Part shown: positions 3,001 to 42,492 of the stretch, in pieces
Numbering within the stretch: the first letter of the stretch is position 1
How the letters are laid out: every line of letters starts with the position of its first letter
Origin: Terasakiella brassicae
GTDB taxonomy: Bacteria; Pseudomonadota; Alphaproteobacteria; Rhodospirillales; Terasakiellaceae
Direction of reading: 5' to 3'
DNA length: 47,137 bases
Assembly (NCBI RefSeq): GCF_014641495.1
Contig: NZ_BMHV01000025.1
Location: forward strand, 1 to 47,137
Notes under the pieces: model-generated
Databases searched by the model: none
Told to the model about the DNA's origin: nothing
Seen by the model: the letters and a program-made list of their open reading frames with translations, nothing else
Program-made: the position numbers and the translations under genes

Positions 3001-6000
3001 TACCTATACGGTTTCTGATGGTCAGGGCGGCGTGACAACGGCAACGGCCACCGTTGATGTTGAAGCTGATGCGGATGCACCTGTGATTTCCATTAATATC
3101 GGGGCACCGGAAGCTGTCAGTGATGATGGTGCGGTTGCCGGTGGCAGTGTCAGCGGTGACGATGTGGCATCCGGTTCTGTTCAAGGTGTGACGATCTCGG
3201 GCTTTGATTCAGAAGGGAACCCGGCGGCTGTTGAACAAGTGACCAATGGTCATGGGGGCGGCATCGGTGTCGCAGCCCATACAACAGGGTCAAAAGACCT
3301 GTTGGGTTATGACAGCAAAGAAGGTGCAAGCGAGAGCCTCGTCTTTGAATTTGACGAAGATGTAAACAATGTCAGCTTCAACGTTGAACAATTCGGTGAA
3401 GGCGGCAATGGGGCGAATGCAAGCTTCGAACAGGGGATCTGGGAAGCCTATGACAATGGTGAACTGGTTGCCAGTGGTACATTCGATGGTCGTGGTTTGA
3501 ACAACGCCGATGATACGGCCAGCGTGTCTATCAACGGTGTGACCTTCGATAAGCTGGTTGTCAAAGCAGATACGACCATTAATGCGGACGGATCAACAGC
3601 AGCCGGAGACAGCGATTTCGCAATTGATAATCTTGAATTTACCTATGCCGATGCATCCGGGGAAGTCGCTTATTACGACTATCCGTTGGATGTGTCTGCT
3701 GAACTGGTGGATCAGGATGGATCGGAAAGCCTGTCCCATGTGACCTTGAGTGGCTTGCCTGAAGGGGCTGTTCTGACACAAAACGGTGTCGAAATTACAA
3801 TTACGGATGGAAGTGCAACAGTCTCTGTCAATCATCTTGATGGATTGTCTTTGCGCGTACCAGCCGATGCGGAAGATTTCAGTATTGATGCTTCTGTGAC
3901 CTCAACCGATAGCAATGGTGATCAGGCAACATCAACGGCAAGTGATACGGCTGAAGTTCCTGATATCGATATCAACAACGGCCCGGATGCTGTTGCAGAT
4001 AGCTTAAGTGGTGTCGAAGACCAGCCGATTACGTTTAACACCACCGATCTGTTGGGCAATGATACGGACGTGGATGGCGATAGCCTGAGCATTGTCAGTT
4101 TTGATCAACCGGAATTCGGGACGATCACAGATGATGGCAACGGTAACTTTACATTCACGCCGAATGAAAACTGGAATGGTCAAACTGACTTTACCTATAC
4201 GATCTCTGATGGTCAGGGTGGGACAGATACGGCCACCGTTTCCATTACGGTTGAGGGTGTAAATGATGGCCCGGTCGCGACACATGACGAAGCCGATACG
4301 TTGGAAGATAACGCAGTTACCTTCAATCCACTGGGCAATGACAGCGATGTTGAAGGCGATAGCCTGAGCATTACGCAAATTAACGGTCAGGATATCGAAG
4401 TCGGCGGCAGTGTTGATGTCGACAATGGTTCCGTCACCTTGAATGCAGACGGCACAGTGACCTTTAACCCGGATGGGAATTATGCGGGGTCACAATCCTT
4501 TGAATATACCGTTTCTGATGGTCAGGGCGGTACAAGTACCGGGACTGCAAATGTCGATGTGGAAGCCGATGCAGATGTTCCTGACTTAAGTGTTTCTGTC
4601 GGTGAAGGTGTCACGCAAACAACAGGTGGTGAGCCGGTTGATGTGATGATCAATTCCGAAAATGCGACCAGTACAGGCGGTGGCTTTACAGTTACAGCAC
4701 GTACGGTTGATGAAAACGGTAATCTGGAAGATACCGATATTGCCTATAACAATAATCCGGTTGGTTTCGGTGTTGCCGGTGCGTCTTCCGGTGCGGCGTC
4801 TGAAATCGGATATGACAATACGCATCAAGCATCCGAAGAACTGGTCTTTGATTTCGATCACGATGTATCTTCTGTTGATGTTTCCGTTTCCTGGTTGCAT
4901 GGCGGTGAAGATGCGATCTACACCATGTATAAAGATGGTGTGGAAGTTGGTCGTGGCATGATTGACGGTGGTTCTGATCGTGTTGATCCCGCCATTACCT
5001 TGACGGCAGATGGCGGTGTTGATTTTGATCAGATCGTCTTTAGTGCCGAAGGCAGTGGCGATGACTATCTGATCCATTCTTTGGAATTTGAAGTATCCGA
5101 TGGTGGGGAAACCACAACGACCTATCCATTGAATATCACATCTGGTTTGAATGATCAGGATGGTTCAGAAAGTCTGAGCCTGAGCGTGGATGGCCTGCCT
5201 GATGGTGCGGTTCTGTCTGCCGGAACGCAAAATGAAGACGGTAGCTGGATATTGTCCGCCGATGATTTGGAAGGTTTGACGGTTACTGTTCCGGGTACTG
5301 GCGAAGACTTTACGGTTGAAGTCTCTGCAACGGCGACAGAAAGCTCAAACGGTGATTCTGAAACCGTGACCGCCAGTGCAACCGTGGTTGCCAATCAAGC
5401 ACCAGAGGCCGGTGATGACAGTGGGGCCACAACGGAAGATCACAGTGTTGTTCTGGACCTGACAGCCAATGACAGCGATGCCAATAATGATGAATTGAGC
5501 GTGACACAAATTAACGGTCAGGACATCGAAGTTGGCGGCAGTATTGATGTCGGTAATGGTAGTGTTACCCTCAATGAAGACGGGACTGTGACCTTTAACC
5601 CGGATGGTGATTTTGCAGGCACGCAGGACTTCACTTATACCGTATCCGATGGTCAGGGTGAAACCAGCACGGCAACTGCTTCTGTTGATATTGAGGCCGT
5701 TGCGGATATGCCGGAACTCAGCCTTGAAATCGGTGAAGGTAATAAGGTGACCTTGGGGGCGTCTGAAGGGGAAAGCTCCACTATCTTCACAACGACCTTT
5801 GGTCAAACCGATGGTGGGTTCCATACATCACCTGTGGATGGCTGGAACACGTCTTCCGATGCGATTGAGGTCTGGGACACGGATGGGGACGGTTCTTATA
5901 TTGAACTCAACGATGACAATCGTGACCATTATGCAGATGCCACCAGTATTAACCGGACGCTAGATACGGTCGAAGACGCGACTTATACGGTCGATTTTGA

Positions 6001-9000
6001 TTATTCTGGTCGGGCGGGCTATGACGAAACCGTCAATGCCATCGAAGTTCGTGTCAATGGGGTTGTGGTTGGTGAGTTCAACCATGACAACGCCAATGGC
6101 AATGATAATGATTGGCAGGATGGCTCTTTCACCTTCACAGGCACGGGTGAGCCGATGACAATTGAATTTGTCAGTGTTGGCGAGGCGATCGATTATGGTC
6201 GCGGCATGTATCTGGATAACATTGAAGCCGTTCAAACCCTGCCGGATAATGCGGGTGAGGAATTTGTCGAATACCCGCTGAACCTCAGCACCAATTTGAC
6301 AGATATCGACGGGTCGGAAAGCCTGTCGGCTGTGACCTTGTCCGGCCTGCCGGACGGGGCTGTGGTTCTGGTGGATGGTCAGGAAGTCACGGTCAGCAAT
6401 GGTACGGCGTCTATTGCCAGTAACAATCTGGATGATGTGGTTCTGCGTGTGCCGGCGGATCAAACAAACTTTGATCTGTCTGCAAGTGTCACATCTACGG
6501 AAGGCACCAATGGTGATAGTGAAACCGCAACCGTAACTGCCAGCGTCCATACAAACAGCGAACCTGTTCTCAGTGATGACAGTGCGGTGACGAACGAAGA
6601 TACCAGTGTAGTGCTGGATCTGGTTGCCAATGACAATGATGCTGATAACGACACATTGACAATTACCCATATTAACGGGGAAGAAATCAGTGTGGGCGGA
6701 CAGGTCGATGTGGGTAATGGAACCGTGACGCTGGAAGCTGACGGGACCGTGACCTTTACACCGAAAGGCGATTATGCCGGGGCACAAAGCTTTGAATATA
6801 CGGTGTCTGATGGTGAAGGCCATAGTGCAACGGCAACCGCCGATATTGATATTGAAGCCGTGGCAGATGCACCGGAACTGACGGTTAATCTGGGTGAAGG
6901 TCAACTGGTTGGCGGTGATGCCGGGGGCGATAGCTCCGGTGGTGCCGGTGACAGCACAGGCGGGGGATCCGGTTCCTATGACAATACAATCACAGGAACA
7001 ACCGGTAATGATTACAGTATCGTTGGAACCAATGACGACGATTATATCGATGCGTCTCATGGCAATGACAAGGTCTATGCCGGTAAAGGCGATGATTATA
7101 TCGATGGCAATACCGGGAACGATACCCTTTATGCAGATAAAGGGGACGATACGGTCATTGGCGGACACGGAGATGACTATCTATCCGGTGATCAAGGCGA
7201 TGATTATCTGGATGGCGGAACGGGCCATGACCGGATTTACGGTGGGTCCGGTGATGACACCATCATCGGGGATCATGGCAACGATACACTGTTTGGTGGA
7301 TCGGGCGATGATAGCATTTCAGCTGGTACGGGCAATGATTATGTCTCCGGTGAAGACGGTGACGATATCATCGATACGGATAGTGGCAATGACGTGATCT
7401 ATGGCGGCAGTGGGGACGATACAATCACTGCCGGTATGGGCAACGATTACATCAATGGTCAGGGCGGCGACGATACGCTGGTCCTGAGCGGGAATTCCAG
7501 TGAATATGCCATCAATGCCTATGGGGGCGGCTATCTGGTCACCCATTACGGCAGTGATGGAACGGATTACATCGAAGGTGTCGAAGAACTGCAATTTGCA
7601 GATGGCAAAATTGATGTAACTGACTTTGCCAATGGTGGCTCCGTTTCTGACAGTTCTGGTGGTGGTGACAGCTCTGGTGGATCCGGTGATAGCACAGGTG
7701 GTGGATCCAGTGGTGATGCCTATATGGAATATCCGCTTGATATCGCCGTTGGCGAAACCGATGTGGACGGGTCTGAAACATTGTCGGCGGTGACCTTGTC
7801 CGGTCTGCCCGATGGGGCGGTTCTGTTGCTGGATGGTCAGGCCGTTTCCGTTACAAACGGGACGGCAACCCTGTCCAGTGATGATCTGGATAACTTGACC
7901 CTGCGTGTCCCCAGTGATGCAGGCAGCTTTGAATTGACAGCGTCTGTTACCTCAACAGATGGGGATGACAGCGCAACAACCACCGTGAATACAGCGGTGG
8001 GCAATGACGCGCCTGTTGCCAATAATGATTATGCAACGACGAACGAAGACACGGCGATTGTTCTGGATCTGGTCGGTAACGATACGGATACAGGCAGTGA
8101 TAGTCTGAGCATCACACAAATTGACGGTGTTGATATCTCCATTGGTGATACGGTCAATGTTGGTAATGGTACGGTCACACTGAATGCAGATGGTTCGATC
8201 AACTTTATGCCGTCTGATGATTTCAGTGGGGAAGTCAGCTTTGATTACACTGTTTCTGATGGTCAGGGTGCGAGCGATACCGCCACGGCATCGATTGATG
8301 TCGCAGGTGTTGCCGATGGGGCCGAAGTCAGCGTGAATATCGGTGAGGGCAGCATTCAAAATGGTGCAGCTCAATCCGGGGTGATCTCGCCCAGCAACTG
8401 GGATGAGACCAACGATGGTATCAGTGTTACCGGTTATACCTATGACAGCAGTGGTGGCTGGTATTCCAGTGCGGACCATATTCAGGAAACGCAAGGCGGC
8501 CTTGGTGTTGCAGATAGCAGTGGTGGCAAAGAGATTACAGACGGTGAAAATATTACCTTCACCTTTGAGAATGATCTCAGCCAGGCCACTGTGAATTTAA
8601 GCGGTCTGAAATCACAGGAACAAGCGGACTACACCCTGTTGGATGATAACGGTCATGTTGTCGGTAGCGGGACGATCTATGGTTCCGGCAACGGTGAAAT
8701 TTCTGCGACCTTGACAGGCAGCAGTGAATTTTCACAAATTGTGATCACGGGTGAACATAAAACCGATAATTACTGCAAAACGTCCAAGTTTGTGATCGAC
8801 TCGGTTGATTACACACCAGCTGCGGCTGCTGCCGTCATGGCCTATCCGGTGACTTTCGCACTCAGCATGAACGATGCCAGCGAAAGCCTGCTGGGGGATG
8901 AATTGAGTGTGGATCTGTCAACGATCCCGCATGGTTCTGAACTCAGCATTGGGGATGCGACTGTCAGTATTGACCAAAATGGCAGCATCTCGGTAACGGG

Positions 9001-9670
9001 CGGGGATGACGTCAGTGTTGACGGTTCAACCTTGAAAATTCCGAGTGCCACATTGGGTGAAGACCTGAGTGTCAGTGGAACCGTGACGGTTCCGGTTGAC
9101 GAAAATGGTCATCACGATAGTTTCGATCTGACAGCCAGCGTTCAAACGGTGGATGGCATGGATGTCAGCATTGAAAATATCGATGCTGATGTTGCCGGTA
9201 CCTACAGTAATGAAATCGGTACCGATGGGAATGACATCCTGTATGCCGATGATAACGGGGCTCAGTTGGCCGGTGGCGATGGTAATGACATTCTGGTCGA
9301 TGGTGACGGGGATGATGTTATGATCGGCGGCGATGGTAATGACACATTCTACGTCAGTGACGGCGAAGATGTTATGAGCGGTGGTGCTGGTAATGATCTC
9401 TTTATCTTTAGCGGAAGCGCCGACAGCGGGACCAGTGGTCAGGATTGGGTCGATGGCGGTGCCGATTTCGATACGATCCATCTGAACGGTTCGGAAGGTT
9501 GGACATTGACCATTACCAACGACGATGGTTCGCAGGATGTTATTTCTTCGGACTCTGCAACGGCCGAACAAATGGCCGATTATCACGATGTATCCGGTCT
9601 GACAGGTCAGATCGAATTCGACGATGGTTCCACAGTCATCTTCGAAGGTGTGGAAAAAGTCGAGTGGTAA
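2..9670 (+). CDS. Giant RTX/cadherin-like repeat adhesin, 3' part (5' end outside window)
   Basis: Open from the left edge; 3222 residues are visible and no true start is present. The protein is very rich in Asp, Gly, Thr and Ser, with one visible Cys. It is built of about 95-residue cadherin/VCBS-like units (NEDT...LLxNDSDxDGDxLSI...FTYTVSDGQG). These alternate with a second unit that begins YPL and contains DxDGSESLS and LSGLPDGAVL (around 3680, 5125, 6270 and 7725), and with lectin-like sandwiches near 3200-3650, 4640-5100, 5760-6230 and 8380-8810. Residues about 450-620 look like DUF4114 (GFFLLSDG, DFDFND). RTX nonapeptides (GGxGxDxxx) occur at 6979-7480 and 9217-9410. The end resembles a type I secretion signal region (DWVDGGADFDTI, then EGVEKVEW). 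Known large RTX adhesins are exported by ABC-type secretion systems, bind Ca2+ and mediate attachment and biofilm. Function here is inferred; the ligand is unknown, and no secretion genes lie in the window. Confidence 0.9.
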   Translation: MTFNADGTVTYQPHDDFNGSDIFTYTVTDEDGETVTATVTMTVSPENDAPVVGAISLPDGTEYQSYTVTKEQLLGNASDVDGDALNITAVSGGSNLAITDNGDGTWTIISDEEGAQDISFTVSDGTAEVTQSATINFADVDNTANDDAASVAEDGSKTINVLSNDQIIDGGELTSVTQPENGEVAFNADGTVTYQPHDDFNGTDSFTYTVTDEDGETVTATVTMTVNPENDDPIAVDDITVTEEDQAVTIDLLDNDSDIDGDSLSITQVDGQDIAAGQTITLSDGSGTVTLNADGTVSFDPTDDLNGDVNFSYTISDAHGGTDTATATVTIDAVNDGPVATDDSFSGNEDTTITFSATDLLGNDSDVDSTGLSIAQINGVSLDNFPAEGLDLGNGMLTFNSADNTFSFAPTEDWSGTETLSYTVTDGDGGSAQANIALNVDGVADTPELAVSLVESGHTGDSVTVTFQDTNAGYHNTYGYYILDENGEPSTGQIIFADLHDQSQGDSFVLDGVDQDRVGFFLLSDGDGENTGLSNGMEVTFQQDAAGNWQVVADGNVLEHDNNGGLYFSDEEFNADNLDHSFDDSDVIGTQNWEDQASQYGGNDFDFNDASFNVEWDTSNSETTYDVNISAAITDDDLSESLTVTIEDFPEGATFNMGEIVDGTLVISGDDLNRLEDLTMTVTGDVTDFQINVTATATEPNGSTASTSLTVSSSFDPDAIDDTGSVTEGQSITMDVVANDVAGDSESLNIVEINGQAVEAGDSVNVNHGSVTLNEDGSITFAADNGYEGPADFTYTVSDGQGTDTATVNLDITDGNIAPVAGDDTASTNEDTSVVIDLLDNDSDANNDALSITQIDGQDVNVGETITLSDGSGQVTLNNDGTVTFDPSDNLNGDVSFDYTIRDPEGMSDTATVTVDIDAVNDGPVAGADNAQTLEDNAVTFNPLGNDSDVDGDSLSITQINGQNIEVGGSVELDNGTLTLNEDGTVTFNPDQHYAGTQDFTYTVSDGQGGVTTATATVDVEADADAPVISINIGAPEAVSDDGAVAGGSVSGDDVASGSVQGVTISGFDSEGNPAAVEQVTNGHGGGIGVAAHTTGSKDLLGYDSKEGASESLVFEFDEDVNNVSFNVEQFGEGGNGANASFEQGIWEAYDNGELVASGTFDGRGLNNADDTASVSINGVTFDKLVVKADTTINADGSTAAGDSDFAIDNLEFTYADASGEVAYYDYPLDVSAELVDQDGSESLSHVTLSGLPEGAVLTQNGVEITITDGSATVSVNHLDGLSLRVPADAEDFSIDASVTSTDSNGDQATSTASDTAEVPDIDINNGPDAVADSLSGVEDQPITFNTTDLLGNDTDVDGDSLSIVSFDQPEFGTITDDGNGNFTFTPNENWNGQTDFTYTISDGQGGTDTATVSITVEGVNDGPVATHDEADTLEDNAVTFNPLGNDSDVEGDSLSITQINGQDIEVGGSVDVDNGSVTLNADGTVTFNPDGNYAGSQSFEYTVSDGQGGTSTGTANVDVEADADVPDLSVSVGEGVTQTTGGEPVDVMINSENATSTGGGFTVTARTVDENGNLEDTDIAYNNNPVGFGVAGASSGAASEIGYDNTHQASEELVFDFDHDVSSVDVSVSWLHGGEDAIYTMYKDGVEVGRGMIDGGSDRVDPAITLTADGGVDFDQIVFSAEGSGDDYLIHSLEFEVSDGGETTTTYPLNITSGLNDQDGSESLSLSVDGLPDGAVLSAGTQNEDGSWILSADDLEGLTVTVPGTGEDFTVEVSATATESSNGDSETVTASATVVANQAPEAGDDSGATTEDHSVVLDLTANDSDANNDELSVTQINGQDIEVGGSIDVGNGSVTLNEDGTVTFNPDGDFAGTQDFTYTVSDGQGETSTATASVDIEAVADMPELSLEIGEGNKVTLGASEGESSTIFTTTFGQTDGGFHTSPVDGWNTSSDAIEVWDTDGDGSYIELNDDNRDHYADATSINRTLDTVEDATYTVDFDYSGRAGYDETVNAIEVRVNGVVVGEFNHDNANGNDNDWQDGSFTFTGTGEPMTIEFVSVGEAIDYGRGMYLDNIEAVQTLPDNAGEEFVEYPLNLSTNLTDIDGSESLSAVTLSGLPDGAVVLVDGQEVTVSNGTASIASNNLDDVVLRVPADQTNFDLSASVTSTEGTNGDSETATVTASVHTNSEPVLSDDSAVTNEDTSVVLDLVANDNDADNDTLTITHINGEEISVGGQVDVGNGTVTLEADGTVTFTPKGDYAGAQSFEYTVSDGEGHSATATADIDIEAVADAPELTVNLGEGQLVGGDAGGDSSGGAGDSTGGGSGSYDNTITGTTGNDYSIVGTNDDDYIDASHGNDKVYAGKGDDYIDGNTGNDTLYADKGDDTVIGGHGDDYLSGDQGDDYLDGGTGHDRIYGGSGDDTIIGDHGNDTLFGGSGDDSISAGTGNDYVSGEDGDDIIDTDSGNDVIYGGSGDDTITAGMGNDYINGQGGDDTLVLSGNSSEYAINAYGGGYLVTHYGSDGTDYIEGVEELQFADGKIDVTDFANGGSVSDSSGGGDSSGGSGDSTGGGSSGDAYMEYPLDIAVGETDVDGSETLSAVTLSGLPDGAVLLLDGQAVSVTNGTATLSSDDLDNLTLRVPSDAGSFELTASVTSTDGDDSATTTVNTAVGNDAPVANNDYATTNEDTAIVLDLVGNDTDTGSDSLSITQIDGVDISIGDTVNVGNGTVTLNADGSINFMPSDDFSGEVSFDYTVSDGQGASDTATASIDVAGVADGAEVSVNIGEGSIQNGAAQSGVISPSNWDETNDGISVTGYTYDSSGGWYSSADHIQETQGGLGVADSSGGKEITDGENITFTFENDLSQATVNLSGLKSQEQADYTLLDDNGHVVGSGTIYGSGNGEISATLTGSSEFSQIVITGEHKTDNYCKTSKFVIDSVDYTPAAAAAVMAYPVTFALSMNDASESLLGDELSVDLSTIPHGSELSIGDATVSIDQNGSISVTGGDDVSVDGSTLKIPSATLGEDLSVSGTVTVPVDENGHHDSFDLTASVQTVDGMDVSIENIDADVAGTYSNEIGTDGNDILYADDNGAQLAGGDGNDILVDGDGDDVMIGGDGNDTFYVSDGEDVMSGGAGNDLFIFSGSADSGTSGQDWVDGGADFDTIHLNGSEGWTLTITNDDGSQDVISSDSATAEQMADYHDVSGLTGQIEFDDGSTVIFEGVEKVEW
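8..685 (+). repeat. Recently duplicated 183-codon repeat unit in adhesin
   Basis: The stretch at about 8-136 recurs at about 557-685, offset by 549 bp (183 codons), with only scattered mismatches (roughly nine bases in ten identical by eye). Both encode the NADGTVTYQPHDDFNG segment and the following YTVTDEDGETVTATVTMTV strand. Units further downstream match at protein level but are diverged in DNA. The copies are most alike at the left edge, so more near-identical copies probably lie upstream. Confidence 0.75.
6909..7720 (+). repeat. Internal RTX nonapeptide block flanked by Gly/Ser linkers
   Basis: Two matching linkers (GGDSSGGAGDSTGGGSG at about 6924-6974, and SGGGDSSGGSGDSTGGGSSG near 7655-7715) bracket about 18 RTX nonapeptides of the GGSGDDTI type. 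A capping segment follows (EYAINAYGG... then GVEELQFADGKIDV), of a kind usually found at the C-terminus of RTX proteins. The block occupies the slot that holds a lectin-like sandwich in the sister repeat units. RTX turns bind Ca2+ and fold outside the cell (known for the family). Confidence 0.8.
9217..9410 (+). repeat. C-terminal RTX repeats of adhesin
   Basis: A short run of Ca2+-binding nonapeptides (GTDGNDILYAD, GGDGNDILVDGDGDDVMIGG, GGAGNDLFIF) precedes the last ~85 residues, as is usual ahead of a type I secretion signal. Confidence 0.8.
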
Positions 9671-9765: not shown

Positions 9766-10656
9766 ATGAGAGAGATGCCGCAAATCGCCTATGACAAGAT
9801 AGGCAAATACATCGTGAAACGCATAATTCGGTCAACGGGAAGTTCTGACCTGTACGAATGTTTTGACCCTGATTTACAGACTCGGGTGGCGGTCAAAGTT
9901 TTTGATGTTAAAAAACGTCTGTTGAAGAAACTGCCCTATTCGATTGCCAGTTGGCATCGGCGTTTTTTACGTGAGGCTCGCGTTCTGGCGCAAATAGATC
10001 ATCCTCATGTAATTGCGGTGCGTGACCTTTCATATGTGGGGGATAAGCCCTTTTACGTCATGCCCTATATCGCGACGAATTTGTTATATGAGATGGGACG
10101 GGACGGCCCGGCACAGGGCTATGCACCCGAAATTCAAGATGCGCCGGAAGCACGCATGCTGGATATTTTACGGGCGTGTGATATTTTGTTTCAGGTTGGT
10201 AGTGCGTTGTCGGCGTTTCATGGGCGGGGTCTTGTTCATCGTGATATTAAACCGGCAAATGTTTTATTAACCCAGTTAAATGTCGGGTTGGTGAAGCTAT
10301 GTGATACCGGCATGGTTAAATTCCCGGATAGCGAGGAATCGCAGGCGGGATATTGGATTGGCACCGAAGATTTCATCGCACCGGAACAAAAACGTGATTC
10401 AAAAAGCGTGGATACGCGGGCCGATATTTTTGCATTGGGTGTTTTGGGGTATCGGATGCTGACGGGGGAACTGCCGCGTGGGGCCTTTGACACCCCAAAA
10501 GAAATGCGCACGGATGTCCCGGAAGATTTAAGCCAGCTTGTGATGCGCGCTTTATCGCCTAAATTGGAAAGAAGACCCGCAAATGCTTTGGCGTTTTTGC
10601 AAGAGGTCGCACCGATCCGGGCAAATATACGTATGAAAGGAACGAAAATTGGCTGA
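9766..10656 (+). CDS. Hanks-type Ser/Thr protein kinase, soluble
   Basis: A 296-residue protein with one kinase domain and no visible membrane segment. Visible motifs are VAVK with Lys44, the helix-C stretch FLREARVLAQIDHPHV, the catalytic loop H158-R159-D160-I-K with N165, and IAPEQ (APE motif). The metal-binding DFG is DTG (D180-T181-G182), which retains the Asp. The glycine loop is poor (RSTGSSDLYE). Most catalytic residues are present, so activity is plausible. The gene overlaps the TTG start of malonyl-CoA decarboxylase by 8 nt, which suggests translational coupling and a role in that pathway (inference). There is no clear ribosome site before the first ATG; a second in-frame ATG lies at 9775. 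The substrate is unknown. Confidence 0.88.
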   Translation: MREMPQIAYDKIGKYIVKRIIRSTGSSDLYECFDPDLQTRVAVKVFDVKKRLLKKLPYSIASWHRRFLREARVLAQIDHPHVIAVRDLSYVGDKPFYVMPYIATNLLYEMGRDGPAQGYAPEIQDAPEARMLDILRACDILFQVGSALSAFHGRGLVHRDIKPANVLLTQLNVGLVKLCDTGMVKFPDSEESQAGYWIGTEDFIAPEQKRDSKSVDTRADIFALGVLGYRMLTGELPRGAFDTPKEMRTDVPEDLSQLVMRALSPKLERRPANALAFLQEVAPIRANIRMKGTKIG

Positions 10657-12052
10657 TTTGCTGGAAAAAATCAAAAGCTGGAGCTTCAATTGGCGAACCA
10701 TTGCGCAGGCTGGCGGGAGTGAAGACGCATTAAACCTATCCCCGGATTTACCTGTGCATCAATGTCAACAGGTGCGCAAACAATTGAATGCCTGTTTGCA
10801 GTCTCAGGGTGGAGAGGTCTCGGCGCGTCAACGGGCAGCAACTTTGGGACAGGCTTATCTGGAATTGAATACAGAGGGGCGAAAACGGTTTTTAAAAATT
10901 CTGGCGGAAGATTTTGGAACGGATCGCCAAGCGGTTGATCAATCGATTTCTAATTTCCAAAATGCCACGGATGAAGAAGCCAAACGGGGTTTTGAAATCG
11001 AATTACGCCGCAATTTGGAACCTGCACGCATGACGTTGCTCCGTCAGTTTAATGCTTTGCCGCAAGGGGTTAAGTTCTTGGTTGATTTGCGGGCCGAGTT
11101 GATGCAAATGGCCCGTGAAGAGAGCAGTTTGAAAATCGTGGAACGCGATTTGAAAGATGTTCTGATTTCGTGGTTCGACGTGGGGTTTCTGGAATTACGG
11201 CGTCTGACATGGGATAGCCCCGCCAGTGTTCTGGAAAAAATTGCGGAATATGAGGCCGTTCATTCCATCCAAAGCTGGTCGGATTTGAAAAACCGTCTGG
11301 CGCGTGATCGTCGTCTCTTTGCCTTTTTCCACCCCCGTATGCCGGATGAACCGCTGATTTTTGTCGAGGTTGCTCTGGTAAACGGTATGGCGGACAATGT
11401 GCAGGATTTGTTGGACGAAAATGCGCCCCTTTTGGACCCGGATGCCGCTGATACCGCTATTTTCTATTCTATTTCCAACGCACAGGCCGGATTGGCAGGC
11501 ATCAGTTTTGGCAATTTCCTGATCAAGAAAGTTGTGGCAAGCCTGAAAAAGGATCTGCCGAACCTGAAGACATTTGCCACGCTTTCACCTATTCCCGGTT
11601 TTCGAAAGTGGCTGGATGAAACACTGGCGGAAGGCGATAGTGCGCTTTTACAAACAAGTGAACGCGAAGCCCTTAAACTTGCCAGCGGACAAAAAGGGGC
11701 CAAGGGGGGCTTGAAGGCCTTGCTGGATGATGGACGGTGGGTTAATAAACCGGAGGCATGTGAGGCATTAAAAGCACCGTTGATGCGCTTGGCGGCACGT
11801 TATTTGACGGAAGCAAAGCGCAAGGGCGCGCGCCCGCTGGATCCGGTTGCACATTTCCACCTTAGCAACGGGGCACGTATGGAACGTCTCAATTGGTTAG
11901 GGGATGTGTCGCAAAAAGGTATGAAACAATCTGCGGGCATGATGATTAACTATCTTTATAAACTGAGCGATATAGAAAAAAACCACGAAGCATATCGCGG
12001 TGATGGGCAAATCATCGTTTCTTCGCAAATCAAATCACTGAAAAAAGGATAA
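10649..12052 (+). CDS. Malonyl-CoA decarboxylase
   Basis: A 467-residue protein that would convert malonyl-CoA to acetyl-CoA and CO2. Family signatures are MTLLRQFNALPQGVKFLVDLRAE near residues 130-152, SPIPGFRKWL, and the C-terminal stretch from DPVAHFHLSNGARMERLNW to SAGMMINYLYKL, which holds the catalytic His/Ser region known for the family. Length fits bacterial members. The start is TTG at 10649, with AAAGGA 8 nt upstream, overlapping the kinase stop. The ICL/PEP mutase-like gene follows 5 nt after the stop. The operon would feed malonate or malonyl-CoA carbon into acetyl-CoA. No malonyl-CoA synthetase or malonate transporter gene lies in the window. Confidence 0.93.
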   Translation: MADLLEKIKSWSFNWRTIAQAGGSEDALNLSPDLPVHQCQQVRKQLNACLQSQGGEVSARQRAATLGQAYLELNTEGRKRFLKILAEDFGTDRQAVDQSISNFQNATDEEAKRGFEIELRRNLEPARMTLLRQFNALPQGVKFLVDLRAELMQMAREESSLKIVERDLKDVLISWFDVGFLELRRLTWDSPASVLEKIAEYEAVHSIQSWSDLKNRLARDRRLFAFFHPRMPDEPLIFVEVALVNGMADNVQDLLDENAPLLDPDAADTAIFYSISNAQAGLAGISFGNFLIKKVVASLKKDLPNLKTFATLSPIPGFRKWLDETLAEGDSALLQTSEREALKLASGQKGAKGGLKALLDDGRWVNKPEACEALKAPLMRLAARYLTEAKRKGARPLDPVAHFHLSNGARMERLNWLGDVSQKGMKQSAGMMINYLYKLSDIEKNHEAYRGDGQIIVSSQIKSLKKG

Positions 12053-12057
12053 ACAAC

Positions 12058-12912
12058 GTGTCGACGGCTTCAAACCTGCGCGCTTTATTGGCGGGAGATG
12101 ACTTTTTAATGATGCCGTGTTGCTTTGACGGCTTAAGCGCAACGTTGATCGAACGGGCAGGGTACCCCTTAACATTTATGAGCGGCTTCAGTGTTTCTGC
12201 GGCCCGTCTGGGGATGCCGGATACGGGCTTGATCTCTTATGGGGAGATGGTCGATCAGGGGCGTTCCATCTGTCAGGCAACGGCGTTGCCGGTTATTGGG
12301 GATGGCGATACAGGCTATGGCAATGCGTTAAATGTCAAACGAACTGTCCAAGGATATGCCCAAGCCGGGTTTGCCGGGATTATGATTGAAGATCAGTTGT
12401 CCCCCAAACGATGTGGGCATACCAAGGGGAAACAAACCGTTGGTTTTGACGAAGCCTGCATGCGTATTCAGGCTGCTGTTGATGCCAGAAACGAAGGGGC
12501 TGATATTTTGATTATGGCGCGCACCGATGCCCGTCAAACCGAAGGGCTGGACGAAGCAATTCGTCGTATGAAGGCTTTTGAAAAGATCGGGGCCGATATC
12601 CTGTTTCTGGAAGCTCCGCAGTCTGTTGACGAAATGACGTTTTTTTGCCAAGAGGTCAAAGGGGCAAAAATGGCCAATATGGTGGAGCAAGGCAAGACAC
12701 CGGTATTGCCGCCGATGCAGTTGGCTGAAATGGGCTATAAAATCGCTGCTTATCCTTTGACGCTGATTTTATCGGCGGTTCAGGCAATGGAAACCGCGTT
12801 GGAAGAACTGAAAGGCGGGTATCACCCGAAGTCACTGGCAAGCTTTGAACACCTTCAAGAGGTTATAGGCTTTCCAGACTATTATCAGAATGAAGAACGA
12901 TATAAGATATGA
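12058..12912 (+). CDS. Isocitrate lyase/PEP mutase superfamily enzyme
   Basis: A 284-residue TIM-barrel enzyme. Visible motifs are the PCCFDGLSATLIERAGY N-terminus, the metal-site loop GDGDTGYGN, IEDQ, and the K117-R118-C119-G120-H121 motif in which the Cys is catalytic in the lyase branch. Members cleave or decarboxylate 2-oxo or hydroxy acids (2-methylisocitrate lyase, oxaloacetate decarboxylase and others); the exact substrate cannot be read from the sequence. The start is GTG at 12058 with AAAAAAGGA just upstream. It is third in the kinase/decarboxylase operon, so a role beside malonyl-CoA or C3-C4 acid metabolism is inferred. Confidence 0.85.
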   Translation: MSTASNLRALLAGDDFLMMPCCFDGLSATLIERAGYPLTFMSGFSVSAARLGMPDTGLISYGEMVDQGRSICQATALPVIGDGDTGYGNALNVKRTVQGYAQAGFAGIMIEDQLSPKRCGHTKGKQTVGFDEACMRIQAAVDARNEGADILIMARTDARQTEGLDEAIRRMKAFEKIGADILFLEAPQSVDEMTFFCQEVKGAKMANMVEQGKTPVLPPMQLAEMGYKIAAYPLTLILSAVQAMETALEELKGGYHPKSLASFEHLQEVIGFPDYYQNEERYKI

Positions 12913-37983: not shown

Positions 37984-38961
37984 TTGGCAACAAATGCAGA
38001 CAGCCTGAACCGGATACAGTTTGACTGTGAACCGGCCTTGAAAGAGGCGATTGCCGTCTGGCGGCGCTGGCTGGAAAGTGAACGTCGTGCCTCTAAACAC
38101 ACGCTGGATGCTTATTTACGCGATTTGTCGGCTTTTTTTATCTTTTCGCAAAATCTGCTGGGGTATCCGGCCGGGGTGGAAGATTTACGCAGTTTCAGTG
38201 CCGCTGATTTTCGCGGGTTTTTGGCAGACCGGACCGAAGCCGGAATTGCGCGCAGTTCCATCAATCGGCAAATGTCGACGCTGCGTAATTTCTTTAAGTT
38301 TTTAAATCAGCAAGGCATTTTGGAAAATCCGGCATTGGCGGCGGTTCGAACGCCCAAACAAAAACAGGCGGTTCCCAAGGCCTTATCCCAACAAGAAGCC
38401 GTTGTGTCGTTGGATGCGATTGCACAACTGAGCCAAGGCGATTGGCATGACAAACGCGGCCTGTCGTGGGTTGCAAAACGTGATGCGGCGGTTTTAACCC
38501 TGCTTTATGGCTGCGGCTTGCGCATTGGGGAGGCATTGAGCCTGAAACGCAAAGAAGCCCCCAACACAGATGTCATGCGCATTACCGGGAAGGGCAATAA
38601 GGAACGCATGGTCCCGGTTCTGCCGCTGGTGATCGCGGCGGTCAATGCCTATCTGGAAGATTGCCCGTTTGATTTAAAACAAAATGGCCCGTTGTTTGTC
38701 GGGGCACGGGGCAAGGCGCTGGACCCCGGTGTGATACAACGCCAAATTCGAAAATTACGCCCCCTGTTAAACTTGCCCGAAACGGCAACACCCCATGCTT
38801 TACGCCACAGTTTTGCAACGCATTTGCTGGCAGGTGGCGGGGATTTGCGCACGATTCAGGAATTGCTGGGACATGCTTCGCTGTCGACAACGCAACGCTA
38901 TACCGCCGTGGATGAAGTCAAGCTGAATGCGGAATATAAGAAAGCTCATCCTCGCGCTTAA
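37984..38961 (+). CDS. xerC: Tyrosine recombinase XerC
   Basis: 325 residues from the TTG at 37984. The frame is open further upstream inside the DUF484 gene, but the family N-terminus fits this start. A SAM-like core-binding domain occupies about 20-105. The catalytic domain shows YGCGLRIGEAL (Arg I), TGKGNKERMVP (Lys), HALRHSFATHLL (His-x-x-Arg), LGHASLSTTQRY (second His and nucleophile Tyr). It acts with XerD at dif to resolve chromosome dimers. The stop overlaps that of a convergent 55-aa gene. Confidence 0.94.
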   Translation: MATNADSLNRIQFDCEPALKEAIAVWRRWLESERRASKHTLDAYLRDLSAFFIFSQNLLGYPAGVEDLRSFSAADFRGFLADRTEAGIARSSINRQMSTLRNFFKFLNQQGILENPALAAVRTPKQKQAVPKALSQQEAVVSLDAIAQLSQGDWHDKRGLSWVAKRDAAVLTLLYGCGLRIGEALSLKRKEAPNTDVMRITGKGNKERMVPVLPLVIAAVNAYLEDCPFDLKQNGPLFVGARGKALDPGVIQRQIRKLRPLLNLPETATPHALRHSFATHLLAGGGDLRTIQELLGHASLSTTQRYTAVDEVKLNAEYKKAHPRA

Positions 38962-39125
38962 GGCTTATCCTTGTTGGCTGCATCTCCGAAGAAAAACTGT
39001 TTGCCGAAAATCAGCATGATAAAGACTGCGCCGAGTTCAGCGGCAAAGGCGAGCAACAGGTCCTGTGTGAAAAAGAAGGTGGCGAGGAAGACAATCGCCA
39101 TAAGAACCCAAGCAAGATATCTCAT
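38958..39125 (-). CDS. 55-aa membrane protein, unknown
   Basis: A small ORF encoding 55 residues, beginning MRYLAWVLMAIVFLATFFF and ending NKDKP. It has two hydrophobic stretches (about 4-20 and 25-42), the second followed by GKQFFFGD and a short charged tail. AAGGAAA precedes the ATG. It lies 11 nt past the stop of the phosphatase gene, so it is probably the last gene of the receiver-exonuclease-phosphatase operon. Its stop overlaps the xerC stop. Function not recognised. Confidence 0.65.
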   Translation of the reverse strand: MRYLAWVLMAIVFLATFFFTQDLLLAFAAELGAVFIMLIFGKQFFFGDAANKDKP

Positions 39126-39136
39126 TTTATGTTTCC

Positions 39137-39928
39137 TTATTGATCGGTTGTGACCTGAAAGACGGTCATTTCAGAATTGAAAAAAAGCGCACCGGATAAA
39201 ACACCATACAGGCAAGCCCCTGTATCCAGCCCAATGCGATGGGGTTCCAGAACAGGGTCGGGCAGCACGGTATGTCCATGCACAATAAAGGTGCCATCCT
39301 CAAAAGGGCCTGTATGTTCCAAAAACTCATCGCGGATCCATGCCCAATGTTTCGGGTGGGTTGATAATTTCGTTGCATTGAAATTATCTTCGATGGAAAT
39401 GGTTGGGTCGATCCCGGCATGAACACACAGAATATTCCCGCTTTTATAATGGCTGGCAAAGGTATTGAGTTGTTCAATGCGTTGTGGCCCCAAGGCTTTG
39501 ACGAGGGCTTTGCGATGTTCATAAATCGGGGTTTGTGCAATCGGGGGGATTTTAATATTCAGGTTTTCCAATGTGGAAAGCCCGCCGTTTCCCCGCCATA
39601 AAGCCCACTGCATACGATAATTGGCCATATCAGCATTTAGAACCCGTAACAAAAGCTGTTCGTGATTGCCCATAAGGGGAATGATATTCCAATCATTAAT
39701 CCCTTCACGGATCAGATCCAGAACCTCAATGGCAGCATCCCCGCGATCAATAATATCGCCAAGCAAAACCAAATCGACCCGTTTGCAGGCGGGCGGGATC
39801 ACTTTTTTGATTGTCGGCAGGATGCGCACCAATAGATCAAAACGCCCATGAATATCCCCGACTGCCACAAGGGCGACATCTTTTTCAGCAATGGCGGGAA
39901 CAGGGCAGGCGTTGCGAATAATTTCCAA
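39137..39928 (-). CDS. PPP-family metallophosphatase (Ser/Thr phosphatase type)
   Basis: 263 residues. The PPP metal and catalytic motifs are complete: VGDIHGRFD, LGDIIDRGD, LMGNHEQLL, CVHAG and IVHGHTV. Members dephosphorylate phosphoproteins or hydrolyse dinucleoside polyphosphates; the substrate is open. No membrane segment. The start is TTG at 39928, with AAGGAG upstream overlapping the end of the exonuclease gene (12-nt gap). Confidence 0.9.
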   Translation of the reverse strand: MEIIRNACPVPAIAEKDVALVAVGDIHGRFDLLVRILPTIKKVIPPACKRVDLVLLGDIIDRGDAAIEVLDLIREGINDWNIIPLMGNHEQLLLRVLNADMANYRMQWALWRGNGGLSTLENLNIKIPPIAQTPIYEHRKALVKALGPQRIEQLNTFASHYKSGNILCVHAGIDPTISIEDNFNATKLSTHPKHWAWIRDEFLEHTGPFEDGTFIVHGHTVLPDPVLEPHRIGLDTGACLYGVLSGALFFNSEMTVFQVTTDQ

Positions 39929-39940
39929 GGGGAAGGCTCC

Positions 39941-42082
39941 TTAGAATTGCGCTTGTTGGGCGCGCACTTCAACGATTTTATGGCTGGCGCGAAGCGCATC
40001 GTTAAGCGTGATAATTCCGCGTGCCTTTAACATCGGTATCATGCGCAGGAAAATACCGGCGGTGACCAGCGTATCGCCAATGGCGGTATGGCGTCCTTCG
40101 ATTTCAATACCGAAACGACGGGCGATGTCATCAAGGGAATGTTCCGTTTTATGGTCATGCAGCAACACAGAAAGCAATAAGGTATCCAGCACGGGATGAT
40201 CAAAATTCAATCGGCATTCATCCTGTTTGAGGTGCAGAAATTTCATATCGAAGGCCGCATTATGGGCAACCAAAACCGTGTCTTTCGCAAATTCAAAGAA
40301 TTGCGGCAGAACGATTTGTGCAGGTGGTTTATCTTTAACCATATCATCCGTGATACCATGAAATCTGATGGATGATTTGGGGATTTTGCGATTGGGGTTG
40401 ACGAGACGGGCAAAGGATTCCCCGGTTAAAATGCGCCCATTGAGGATGCGTACGCCTGCCAATGCGATAATTTCATCACCGCCGGACGGTTTAAGCCCTG
40501 TCGTTTCTGTATCAAAAACCACGTAAGATAAGTCACTTAACGGGCGTTCCCCCCATTCACCCAGCGGTTTATCGGAGGGATTGAGCAAAGAGAAATCATA
40601 AAATTCCGGTCGGGCGGGCAAATCTTCGCTGGTCTTATCCGCCATTGGGCGTTGTGCCGTCATCATGGGCAGGCGCAATCGAGACCAGCCGTTTTCCATT
40701 CGTTCGCTCCACATCTCGCAACGATGATGTTCCAGAATGTCGCGCAGGCTCATACCGCCGATGGATTCCTGCAAGTTGATGTCCAGCCAGCTATCAATCT
40801 CGGCTGAGGAAAGTTCCTTGCCGGACCAGATGACATCAATATGAATGCGCTCATTGCGTTGCACGGATTGCAGATCAAAATCCCGCGCCCCGGTGATTTT
40901 ATGGATGTTGTGAACGATCTGATCCAGTGCCAGCACAAGGGAATGGCTATCCCCGCGCAGCCAACAGGGAATACCGGTCATCATCGCAGTGATGTTTTTT
41001 TCATCCTTCAGGCGCAAGGAGACGAGGCTGAGCAGGTTGGCTGAATAAATATCGGCCATTGGCCAATGCCCGGTGGCAAGACCGTGATAATCGCCTGCCA
41101 AGCGATTAATCCGCTCAGAAAGTTTCTGACTTTCTTCCAACAGTACATTTTGAAAGCGGGTACGCATTTGTTCGGGCATTTCGTCGTTTTTTGTTACCAT
41201 TTCCGCAGCGGCACGCAGATTGGCGATGGGTTGGCGCAGGCCTTCGGTGGCTTCGCGCAACAGATGGTCCCGTTTCCCCAACGCCCCCAGTTCTTCGGTA
41301 ATATCGTGAAAGGTCAGGACATAGCTGACCGGGATGTTTTCTTCATCACCCAACAACAAGGTCATGCGCGCTTCCAGCGTAAAACGACCATCGCGGGTTG
41401 CGCAGACAAAAGAGGTACTGAGGCCTTCCGGGTGCTTTTCGTGGCGGTGTTCTGCCAAACGATTGCGCAGACGGCGAAGCGAATGCAGCAAGGGCGGGTT
41501 GTCAATTACACTGAAGAGTGAACGCCCCAGTCCGATATCCCCGCTGACATGCAACAGGGAAAGGGCGCGTTGATTATAAAGCAAGACCTGATTGTTGAGG
41601 TTGCAGATAATAACCCCTTCGTACAAATCCTTTAAAACGGCTTCCAGTGTTTTCTTTTGGTCAACGGTTTTGGCGGTTGCCTCCTTAATCGCCTGATCGA
41701 TTTCAAGGCGTTGGCGGCGATACTGGCGGGCGAGGTCGCGCACCGTTTCCGGCAAATGGTCCAGATAACGCCCCGATGAAACCTCAACACGGTGGTTTTT
41801 GTTGCTGTGCAGGATGGTTTGAATATCGCGGATAAGCCCCTGAATGGGGGATGCAACGTTCAGGTCGAACAGGGCCCCGATGGCGATGATGGATAAACCG
41901 ATTCCAATCGTTGCCCCCAGTCCGAACAACAGCAGGCTGTCGGCCGGGTCGTTATGGGTCTGGATATGGTCAAAGGCGAAATAAAAACTGGCAACGATTA
42001 TGGACAGACAGAAGAATCCCAAAAGGGCGAAAAACAGCAACGTGCGGACACGCAAGCTTAATTTTGAAATACGCCTGAGCAT
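39941..42082 (-). CDS. Membrane pseudo-histidine-kinase fused to DEDDh 3'-5' exonuclease
   Basis: 713 residues from the ATG at 42082, which has AAAGGAGGGG at ideal spacing. TM helices lie at about 12-36 and 48-72, then a helical linker, then PAS at about 146-265. A DHp-like region (TEGLRQPIANLRAAAE) carries Glu280 where kinases have the phospho-acceptor His. The ATPase-like region keeps an N-box-like VHNIHKITG but has no DxGxG. The C-terminal exonuclease has FDTETTG (D524, E526), HNAAFD (D612) and HTAIGD (H665, D670), the full DEDDh set of DnaQ-type proofreading enzymes. Exonuclease activity is therefore likely and kinase activity unlikely. It follows a receiver gene by 38 nt and precedes a phosphatase gene by 12 nt. 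Confidence 0.88.
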   Translation of the reverse strand: MLRRISKLSLRVRTLLFFALLGFFCLSIIVASFYFAFDHIQTHNDPADSLLLFGLGATIGIGLSIIAIGALFDLNVASPIQGLIRDIQTILHSNKNHRVEVSSGRYLDHLPETVRDLARQYRRQRLEIDQAIKEATAKTVDQKKTLEAVLKDLYEGVIICNLNNQVLLYNQRALSLLHVSGDIGLGRSLFSVIDNPPLLHSLRRLRNRLAEHRHEKHPEGLSTSFVCATRDGRFTLEARMTLLLGDEENIPVSYVLTFHDITEELGALGKRDHLLREATEGLRQPIANLRAAAEMVTKNDEMPEQMRTRFQNVLLEESQKLSERINRLAGDYHGLATGHWPMADIYSANLLSLVSLRLKDEKNITAMMTGIPCWLRGDSHSLVLALDQIVHNIHKITGARDFDLQSVQRNERIHIDVIWSGKELSSAEIDSWLDINLQESIGGMSLRDILEHHRCEMWSERMENGWSRLRLPMMTAQRPMADKTSEDLPARPEFYDFSLLNPSDKPLGEWGERPLSDLSYVVFDTETTGLKPSGGDEIIALAGVRILNGRILTGESFARLVNPNRKIPKSSIRFHGITDDMVKDKPPAQIVLPQFFEFAKDTVLVAHNAAFDMKFLHLKQDECRLNFDHPVLDTLLLSVLLHDHKTEHSLDDIARRFGIEIEGRHTAIGDTLVTAGIFLRMIPMLKARGIITLNDALRASHKIVEVRAQQAQF

Positions 42083-42120
42083 GGATCCCCTCCTTTGCCA
42101 CGACCACAACAGCGCCTGTT

Positions 42121-42492
42121 TTACGCGTCGCCTAACAGTTCCTTGACCCGTTTGGTCAATTCGCTGGTGGAAAACGGCTTGGTCACATAATCGGTTGCCC
42201 CAAGGGCGAGGCCTTTTTCTTTTTCCACTTCCCGTCCCTTTGCGGTCAGCATAATAATGGGGATGGCGGCCCATTCTTCGGATCGGCGCAAGGTTTGACA
42301 CACATCATAACCGTCACGTCCCGGAATCATGAGGTCCAGTAAGATCAGGTCCGGTGTTTTTTCAACAACGGCTTCCAGTGCTTCGTTTCCATCGCGTGCG
42401 ATACGGACTTCGTATCCGGCTTGGGTCATCAGAAATTCAAGTGACAAAACAATATTGGGTTCGTCATCCACGACAAGGACCGATTTGGTCAT
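42121..42492 (-). CDS. Single-domain response regulator (receiver only)
   Basis: 123 residues from the ATG at 42492, with GGGAG upstream. Receiver motifs are D9-D10-E11, phospho-acceptor Asp53 ([10 protein letters not shown]), IIMLTAKG (Thr switch) and the KPF loop ([10 protein letters not shown]). No output domain. It heads the operon with the pseudo-kinase/exonuclease, so it may be an input to, or partner of, that protein. As that protein lacks the phospho-His, a kinase elsewhere would be needed. Confidence 0.92.

Follow-up and report, generated by a model that had tools for sequence, protein, structure and literature searches.

The DivL protein of Caulobacter retains the PAS domain and DHp-CA skeleton of a histidine kinase with the phospho-accepting histidine replaced, and is proposed to read the phosphorylated single-domain receiver DivK at the normal docking face; exchange of DivL Arg553 for alanine, one of four such positions, weakened DivK~P binding (PMC4211667). 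A related design is encoded by a Terasakiella brassicae gene in contig NZ_BMHV01000025.1, whose 47,137 nt are referred to as the window. The gene product of 713 residues is a membrane WalK/VicK-like kinase skeleton without the kinase residues, joined to a DnaQ/PolC-type DEDDh exonuclease, and its gene lies directly behind that of a lone receiver. DivL is matched by profile and by fold (PDB 4q20). The CckA relay is the target of DivL, which carries no nuclease, whereas the 713-residue chain ends in one, and the kinase nearest to it in sequence is an SLC5/STAC kinase in each genome tested. The receiver-linked pseudo-kinase/exonuclease is judged to be real and widespread, a variation on DivL-type signalling that is tied to the SLC5/STAC systems.

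The SLC5/STAC systems include CrbS/CrbR (MxtR/ErdR), RpuS/RpuR and CbrA/CbrB. CrbR and RpuR are LuxR-type regulators (PMC9100948). As in these systems, an SLC5-STAC kinase with an intact core is present in the T. brassicae genome, and the neighbours in several relatives include ActP, DUF4212, ACS and DUF294; unlike them, the kinase is not linked to the receiver gene, and the counterpart of the regulator is a single-domain receiver of 123 residues, with no LuxR-type DNA-binding part, plus the pseudo-kinase/exonuclease (the rest of the genome was not searched for a LuxR-type partner). An exonuclease has been tied to an SSS/STAC system in Pseudomonas putida: PP_0353, an RNase_T-family putative exonuclease, is a target of MxtR/ErdR (CrbS/R), its deletion delays growth on pyruvate but not acetate, and its authors speculate on mRNA decay (PMC9927547). 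It forms an operon with PP_0354, called a CBS-domain protein, whose deletion had no effect on growth under the test conditions (PMC9927547); PP_0354 is read here as a DUF294 protein. The exonuclease and its CBS-domain partner gene thus resemble the present case; PP_0353 differs in being the regulator's target gene and in having only an RNase_T match reported, with no pseudo-kinase (PMC9927547). Its pyruvate phenotype is the sole physiological hint found on the role of the nuclease. A term search of the P. fluorescens CrbS/R paper finds no word starting with "nuclease" or "DUF294" (PMC5715377), and among the listings and abstract openings examined from full-text literature searches, whose coverage excludes most subscription journals, there is no paper describing a pseudo-kinase/exonuclease fusion.

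Architecture of the pseudo-kinase/exonuclease

The two genes in question occupy the following positions:

42121-42492, minus strand: receiver gene, 123 residues, single domain; acidic pair D9 and D10, phospho-acceptor D53, T83 and K105 intact

39941-42082, minus strand: pseudo-histidine-kinase/exonuclease gene, 713 residues from the ATG at 42082

The open frame of the larger gene extends to 42301, but that part is inside the receiver gene. Response_reg is found in the receiver at 4.1e-31 (Pfam). The 713-residue protein is divided as follows:

41630-42082, minus strand (residues 1-151): two probable transmembrane helices (within helices 10-42 and 46-92, with a short turn between) and a HAMP-like coil, read from the sequence and the AlphaFold model

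41300-41629, minus strand (residues 152-261): PAS domain, from Pfam and the AlphaFold model

41063-41299, minus strand (residues 262-340): DHp-like hairpin in which Glu280 replaces the phospho-histidine; Arg283 lies at a +3 offset, like DivL Arg553

40655-41062, minus strand (residues 341-476): ATPase-like (CA) domain in which no N-box, G1 Asp, ATP lid or G2 motif can be recognised, from the AlphaFold fold and hhalign against an intact kinase

39944-40540, minus strand (residues 515-713): DnaQ/PolC-type DEDDh 3'-5' exonuclease domain with D524, E526, D612, H665 and D670

The front half has the order of WalK/VicK-type kinases (transmembrane helices, HAMP, PAS, DHp, CA; by fold PDB 9a5d, E 3e-20, and 4i5s, 3.5e-15, with rmsd 20-27 A over the whole; by profile 4i5s from residue 49) but lacks their phospho-histidine and G2 motif and carries the added C-terminal exonuclease. 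In Pfam, PAS_9 (155-263) and PAS (146-261) are marginally above the cut-off, HisKA scores 16.3 bits against a cut-off of 26.9, and HATPase_c gives no match at E<=1. The AlphaFold model rests on 79 sequences and reaches a mean pLDDT (predicted local distance difference test) of 87.7 and a pTM (predicted template modelling score) of 0.53; it runs from helices 10-42 and 46-92 through a coil to 151, the PAS domain, a helical hairpin (262-338) and an ATPase-like domain (343-475) to a low-confidence linker and the exonuclease. Searched with Foldseek against the PDB, the front half recovers WalK, VicK and other PAS-kinases with root-mean-square deviations (rmsd) of 13-27 A over whole alignments, so that these matches speak for domain order only and not for placement. 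DivL and the HK853-RR468 complex are also among the matches, and the sequence profile search is concordant with the fold search. The fold of a DHp hairpin and CA domain is thus present in the model and in its matches to WalK, VicK, HK853 and DivL. The phospho-accepting histidine is not: hhalign sets Glu280 opposite the invariant histidine of the SLC5 kinase. No G[TSK]GLG motif occurs in 129 full-length rows, and D.G.G strings are found in 36 rows, in the window protein at residues 180-184, inside the PAS domain and outside the CA-like domain. The protein had been proposed to be a dead kinase, and Glu280, the ATPase-like domain devoid of nucleotide-binding motifs and the missing HATPase_c match bear this out.

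The back half recovers the PolC, epsilon and DinG exonucleases by fold. RNase_T covers residues 521-678 at 2e-38 (133 bits against a cut-off of 24), and the fold and all five catalytic residues of PolC/DnaQ (epsilon) are present (PDB 2p1j, 1.3e-46 by profile; 9qpc, rmsd 1.4 A, 34% identity); unlike those enzymes, this exonuclease is fused to a membrane pseudo-kinase and is not part of a polymerase. A 3'-5' exonuclease activity is accordingly predicted from the conserved residues and the model, and a nucleolytic output of the whole protein is plausible.

The family is not confined to the genus. At E<=1e-30, 27 of 60 near genomes have a match; at E<=1e-50, 90 of the 225 genomes of the order do, 68 of them full-length and 22 exonuclease-only. 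There are 38 plasmid records with a match, 19 of which cover >=80% of the protein, and in the named genome collection at least 501 candidate places encode a relative. The best 80 of these, which were taken, fall in Rhodospirillales, Azospirillum, Cohaesibacter, Competibacteraceae, Ectothiorhodospira and metagenome-assembled genomes (MAGs) labelled Desulfobulbaceae and Nitrospirota. A first set of 145 loci (the window, L049-L112 and L127-L206) comprises 129 full-length and 16 exonuclease-only members; with 40 loci added later there are 169 rows in all, equal to 157 distinct sequences, a sample that is skewed to near relatives since it was picked by similarity.

Among the 157 distinct homologues, position 280 is Glu in 106, Arg in 18, Asp in 12, Gln in 5 and other residues in the remainder; histidine occurs in none. 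A plain kinase with one unusual residue is thereby ruled out, as is an intact histidine in most homologues, which would have told against the original prediction. The DEDDh set is complete in 147, with Arg for His in 7 and all five residues lost in 3. Its loss in close relatives had been named as a point that could tell against the original prediction; there is none in six genus genomes, and the 10 cases overall all belong to family f22 of the order. In fifteen pairs from the six genus genomes, the mean ratio of nonsynonymous to synonymous differences (pN/pS) is 0.15-0.38 over six segments of the protein (single values 0.08-0.56). The exonuclease segment has the lowest mean, 0.15, and the DHp and CA segments, at 0.30 and 0.27, are likewise under purifying selection. 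Complete DEDDh residues in 147 of 157 sequences, histidine in none and these low ratios argue that the architecture is not due to chance.

The receiver as conserved partner

In 97 of the 157 distinct homologues the gene immediately upstream, on the same strand, encodes a receiver (match start within 900 nt). The median start-to-stop spacing between receiver and large gene is 6 nt over the 83 loci with a placeable start, and among the 90 upstream receivers of the first set 86 keep Asp53 and all keep Lys105. With a DHp length cut that was chosen after the data were seen, all 97 receiver-adjacent copies have a full-length DHp, and a receiver stands beside none of the 39 copies whose hairpin is short (by about 8 to 18 residues); the 60 copies without an adjacent receiver consist of these 39 and of 21 with a full hairpin. 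The docking-surface count, limited to Arg283 and neighbouring DHp positions, gives Arg at position 283 in 91 of 97 receiver-adjacent copies and in 20 of the 21 full-DHp copies that have no receiver beside them; of the 39 short-DHp copies, 6 have Arg and 26 Glu at this position. Replacement of the histidine together with retention of Arg283 in the receiver-adjacent copies is the DivL-like feature of the family.

Where the receiver is not adjacent it can often be found elsewhere. Eight genomes with a receiver-less locus and a full DHp were searched; six encode a receiver of 60-66% identity elsewhere in a short frame (125-197 codons), G245 has a 50% match and G241 none. Five of six genomes with a short-DHp copy have no receiver, and the sixth, G113, has one (57%) that adjoins its SLC5 kinase. 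Seven of nine exonuclease-only genomes also have none; G082 and G236 keep one. Over the 225 genomes of the order, with G099 and G108 omitted from the tally as undetermined and G101 assigned to the full-DHp class before its copy was retrieved (the retrieved copy agrees), 39 of 41 full-DHp genomes encode a receiver orthologue (E<=1e-33), as do 2 of 25 with short-DHp copies only, 7 of 22 exonuclease-only genomes and 33 of 135 without a family match. G078 and G154, the full-DHp genomes that lack one, encode a more diverged receiver (46-48%) upstream. G108 has a short DHp and no receiver orthologue; G099 has a copy without most of the DHp, yet a receiver orthologue is present in its genome.

The conservation of the receiver that the original prediction looked for is therefore found, both upstream of the gene and among the full-DHp genomes of the order, and a membrane-tethered pseudo-kinase and exonuclease in one chain with the receiver as its partner is supported. 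On this co-occurrence the 713-residue protein is a candidate for binding a phosphorylated single-domain receiver. Natural fusions of receiver and pseudo-kinase were considered as a proxy for the complex; the first set, with its 90 distinct receiver-bearing loci, contains none. Within the genus the receivers are 94-98% identical to that of the window and the large protein 71-79%, as would be expected if the receiver fits more than one partner.

The SLC5/STAC histidine kinase

In relatives the common operon order is receiver, pseudo-kinase/exonuclease, small membrane protein and SLC5-type histidine kinase. Of the 90 distinct receiver-bearing loci, 61 have the kinase start 1.4-3 kb after the match start on the same strand, and 65 have the kinase within 6 kb. 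As a control, the H-box is present in 73 of 79 SLC5 kinase rows from the same loci; the 6 rows without it come from split genes or from contig ends. The His, N, G1 and G2 residues are invariant in an alignment of 21 sequences. The kinase of the T. brassicae genome has HisKA and HATPase_c over the Pfam cut-off and no Pfam match to SSF at E<=0.01, so its SLC5 assignment rests on PDB 10ed, the best PDB match (positions 2-621) of a profile of this kinase and 20 relatives. Entry 10ed is the CbrXA SLC5-STAC protein (PMC13022988). The kinase is found in 6 of 6 genus genomes, unlinked to the operon; in T. brassicae it is on contig C12 (G000:C12), immediately preceded by a weak (34-bit) match to the small membrane gene, and C25 carries the operon.

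By genome class the kinase occurs in 42 of 68 full-length, 7 of 22 exonuclease-only and 52 of 135 other genomes, a modest association. It becomes sharp (40 of 41 full-DHp against 1 of 25 short-DHp genomes) only with the split by DHp length, made after the data were seen.

A kinship in sequence appears to join the two proteins. Profile-profile alignment (hhalign) of the pseudo-kinase DHp-CA with the SLC5 kinase gives a probability of 98.4. In 15 of 15 genomes, selected for having both genes, the SLC5 kinase is the top true kinase for the DHp-CA profile, with 57.6 bits in the genome of the window and 35.0 for the next. The generic HisKA model PF00512 places the SLC5 kinase first in 1 of the 15, among 17-87 HisKA matches each, which makes a generic-HisKA cause of the likeness unlikely (PF00512 covers the DHp only, the test profile DHp plus CA). 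DivL 4q20 is a weak profile match (E 8.4e-5), and the SLC5 kinase outscores all other true kinases throughout. The pseudo-kinase would thus descend from the SLC5 kinase, or both would be held to the same receiver.

Several SLC5 kinase loci depart from the common order. In G082, G073, G074, G072, G059, G009, G148, G152 and G205 the receiver is followed by the SLC5 kinase after 284-424 nt, a gap without room for a pseudo-kinase/exonuclease; the lone receiver of these genomes must therefore act on something else. A few SLC5 kinase frames contain one internal stop (G053:C3, G008:C23 and others) or are in two pieces (G121:C2) and may be pseudogenes or assembly errors. In two Candidatus Thiodiazotropha MAGs (L142, L144) the operon is rearranged to SLC5 kinase, pseudo-kinase/exonuclease and receiver, with a second receiver farther upstream.

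Paralogues and degraded copies

In an exonuclease-domain tree of 72 rows, 15 of 16 exonuclease-only rows form one clade (99/92; L104 stands apart on a long branch and is left out of this statement) and the six f22 short-DHp rows used form another (100/99), both nested within the receiver-bearing forms. Resolution of the backbone is poor, and the drawing is midpoint-rooted with a very long outgroup branch. Two or more copies are found in 13 of the 42 f22 genomes with a match. In the pairs retrieved, one type (L227-L239) lacks the receiver and combines a short DHp with an intact nuclease; the receiver-bearing type keeps the DHp, and its nuclease is usually damaged (6 of 7 of L240-L246, L085, L106-L108 and the copy of G101). 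This partial division of labour supports coupling of receiver and DHp, yet shows that the link to the receiver can persist after the nuclease is lost. In L107, L108, L246 and L247 (genomes G139, G133, G129 and G101) the receiver and SLC5 kinase neighbours are kept and most or all five exonuclease residues are gone.

Proposed signalling route and alternatives

With modest confidence, the probable arrangement is a two-component system that leads from the SLC5/STAC kinase through the receiver and a DivL-like pseudo-kinase to a tethered exonuclease as output. The kinase encoded elsewhere in the genome (G000:C12) would sense an outside solute, perhaps a small carboxylate, and phosphorylate the single-domain receiver, which would dock on the kinase-dead DHp hairpin of the 713-residue protein as DivK~P does on DivL. 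Docking would change the conformation and switch the membrane-tethered DEDDh exonuclease, which may trim RNA or another nucleotide-bearing substrate and so adjust carbon metabolism. The likely kinase and the DUF294/acetate/pyruvate link are additions to the original prediction. The architecture, the loss of kinase residues, the nuclease residues, the conservation of the receiver with its co-occurrence with full-length DHp and the similarity of pseudo-kinase and SLC5 kinase are observed by computation; phosphotransfer, docking, the direction of the switch, enzyme activity, substrate and solute are what the model would add to them.

Several points weigh against this route. The kinase is unlinked in the genus of the window, so that the wiring is assigned by orthology. 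Receiver and SLC5 kinase occur together in 32 of the 135 order genomes that lack a family match at E<=1e-50, and 7 of the 22 exonuclease-only genomes have both as well, from which it follows that the receiver has other targets. The relative placement of the domains is uncertain in the AlphaFold model, as its pTM indicates, and the literature examined reports no biochemistry for a full-length member. The f22 short-DHp rows and the exonuclease-only rows form one clade each, and with Ciceribacter L112 counted besides, the receiver/DHp correlation represents few evolutionary events. Two f22 genomes have a third copy (L078, L079) with a full DHp and an intact nuclease but no receiver beside it. Finally, the 10 of 157 copies without His665 or most DEDDh residues are all beside a receiver, with an eleventh in G101, which implies that the link to the receiver can serve some purpose where nuclease activity is absent.

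It is this last point that gives its footing to a rather unlikely alternative, namely that the pseudo-kinase serves chiefly to tune the receiver for the SLC5 kinase, as a sink, an anchor or a phosphatase aid. The exonuclease would then be a separate activity on the same chain, outside the control of the receiver. All ten nuclease-degraded copies and that of G101 keep the receiver upstream, and the SLC5 kinase is just downstream in 7 of 7 of L240-L246. The short-DHp copies have an intact nuclease in 39 of 39 cases and no adjoining receiver, which means that the two halves can be inherited apart. However, 87 of the 97 receiver-adjacent copies keep all five DEDDh residues, and in the genus no segment of the protein has a lower mean pN/pS than the exonuclease.

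A further possibility, considered quite unlikely, is that the exonuclease removes nucleotides added by the DUF294 nucleotidyltransferase to an RNA 3' end or a protein, i.e. an add/remove switch and not the degradation of bulk nucleic acid. A DUF294 match lies near the exonuclease at 15 of the 16 exonuclease-only loci, at 20 of the 27 receiver-less ones and at 44 of the 102 with a receiver (loci not de-duplicated), and neighbours in several relatives include ActP, DUF4212 and ACS as well; a Marivivens cluster reads acs-DUF4212-symporter-DUF294-hypothetical-receiver-exonuclease and a Paracoccus cluster DUF294-hypothetical-kinase-receiver-exonuclease. The PP_0354/PP_0353 operon (PMC9927547) and the listing of DUF294_C with GlnD/E-like nucleotidyltransferases (PMC3710099) point the same way. 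Against such a switch, DUF294 in the T. brassicae genome is unlinked to the 713-residue gene and sits in a DUF4212-ActP-DUF294-exonuclease cluster with a separate RNase_T exonuclease of 232 residues; no DUF294 match occurs in 47 of the 69 receiver-bearing loci for which 5 kb of sequence is available; and there is the absence of a growth phenotype on pp_0354 deletion.

That the sensor half is a relic, a decaying kinase in front of a loosely constitutive DnaQ-type exonuclease while the receiver serves other targets, fits the one clade that kept the exonuclease alone (10 of 16 such loci with the same EttA neighbour) and the occurrence of receiver and SLC5 kinase without a 713-residue family protein, but is very improbable given purifying selection on DHp and CA in the genus, the full DHp in every receiver-adjacent copy and the likeness to the SLC5 kinase retained in all 15 genomes.

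Neighbouring genes

The remaining genes around the pair are:

39137-39928, minus strand: PPP/calcineurin-like phosphatase gene, 263 residues, TTG start; GDIHG, GDIIDRG, GNHE, HAG and HGH

38958-39125, minus strand: hydrophobic micro-protein gene, 55 residues

42649-44328, plus strand: ABC-F gene, divergent from the operon, a recurring neighbour that served as a landmark

The gaps in the four-gene minus-strand row are 38, 12 and 11 nt; on recomputation, these gaps, the coordinates, the domains, Glu280 and the DEDDh residues all agree with those first given for the locus. The phosphatase matches Metallophos at 2.9e-16 (60.9 bits against a cut-off of 21.5) and carries what is presumably the PPP set of metal motifs. 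It had been suggested as a modulator of the system, a role that its distribution does not support: phosphatase and micro-protein are beside the gene in five genus loci (the window and L049-L052) and in 0 of 56 others. In the sixth genus genome, G003, neither is matched in the 417 nt left downstream on the contig. Both were rejected as core parts and are probably local additions.

The ABC-F gene, which we take to be EttA-like, is divergent from the family gene in many relatives, including 10 of the 16 exonuclease-only loci. A small protein of 162-171 residues with no Pfam match recurs in ActP-DUF294-exonuclease clusters (L120, 9829-10344, plus strand; L111, 5925-6413, plus strand). Elsewhere in the window, a frame of 3222 residues that reaches the window start (2-9670, plus strand) has cadherin-like/bacterial Ig, CshA and RTX calcium-binding repeats of a giant surface or secreted adhesin-like protein, and a protein-kinase-like gene, malonyl-CoA decarboxylase and a PEP-mutase/isocitrate-lyase family gene follow in a row (9766-12912, plus strand).

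Implications

A broader proposal, tentative and somewhat short of probable, is that the family represents a two-component class with a nuclease effector. A transporter-like kinase would act on a lone receiver, and this on a pseudo-kinase copied from, or co-specified with, the same kinase, which would allosterically control a membrane-tethered exonuclease; RNA or nucleotides would be trimmed at the membrane with no transcription factor. One lineage would later have split into short-DHp constitutive nucleases and nuclease-dead receiver readers. The natural paralogue pairs, one member with a short DHp and no receiver and the other with a full DHp, a receiver and a damaged nuclease, render the coupling directly testable.

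If the proposal is true, DivL-type reversed signalling, in which a dead kinase reads a receiver, reaches beyond the cell-cycle case, in a family that spans the Alpha- and Gammaproteobacteria and the MAGs labelled Desulfobulbaceae and Nitrospirota. Two-component signalling would gain a nucleolytic output and the CrbS/RpuS-type carboxylate systems a post-transcriptional arm, which may bear on the need for the exonuclease PP_0353 in normal growth on pyruvate.

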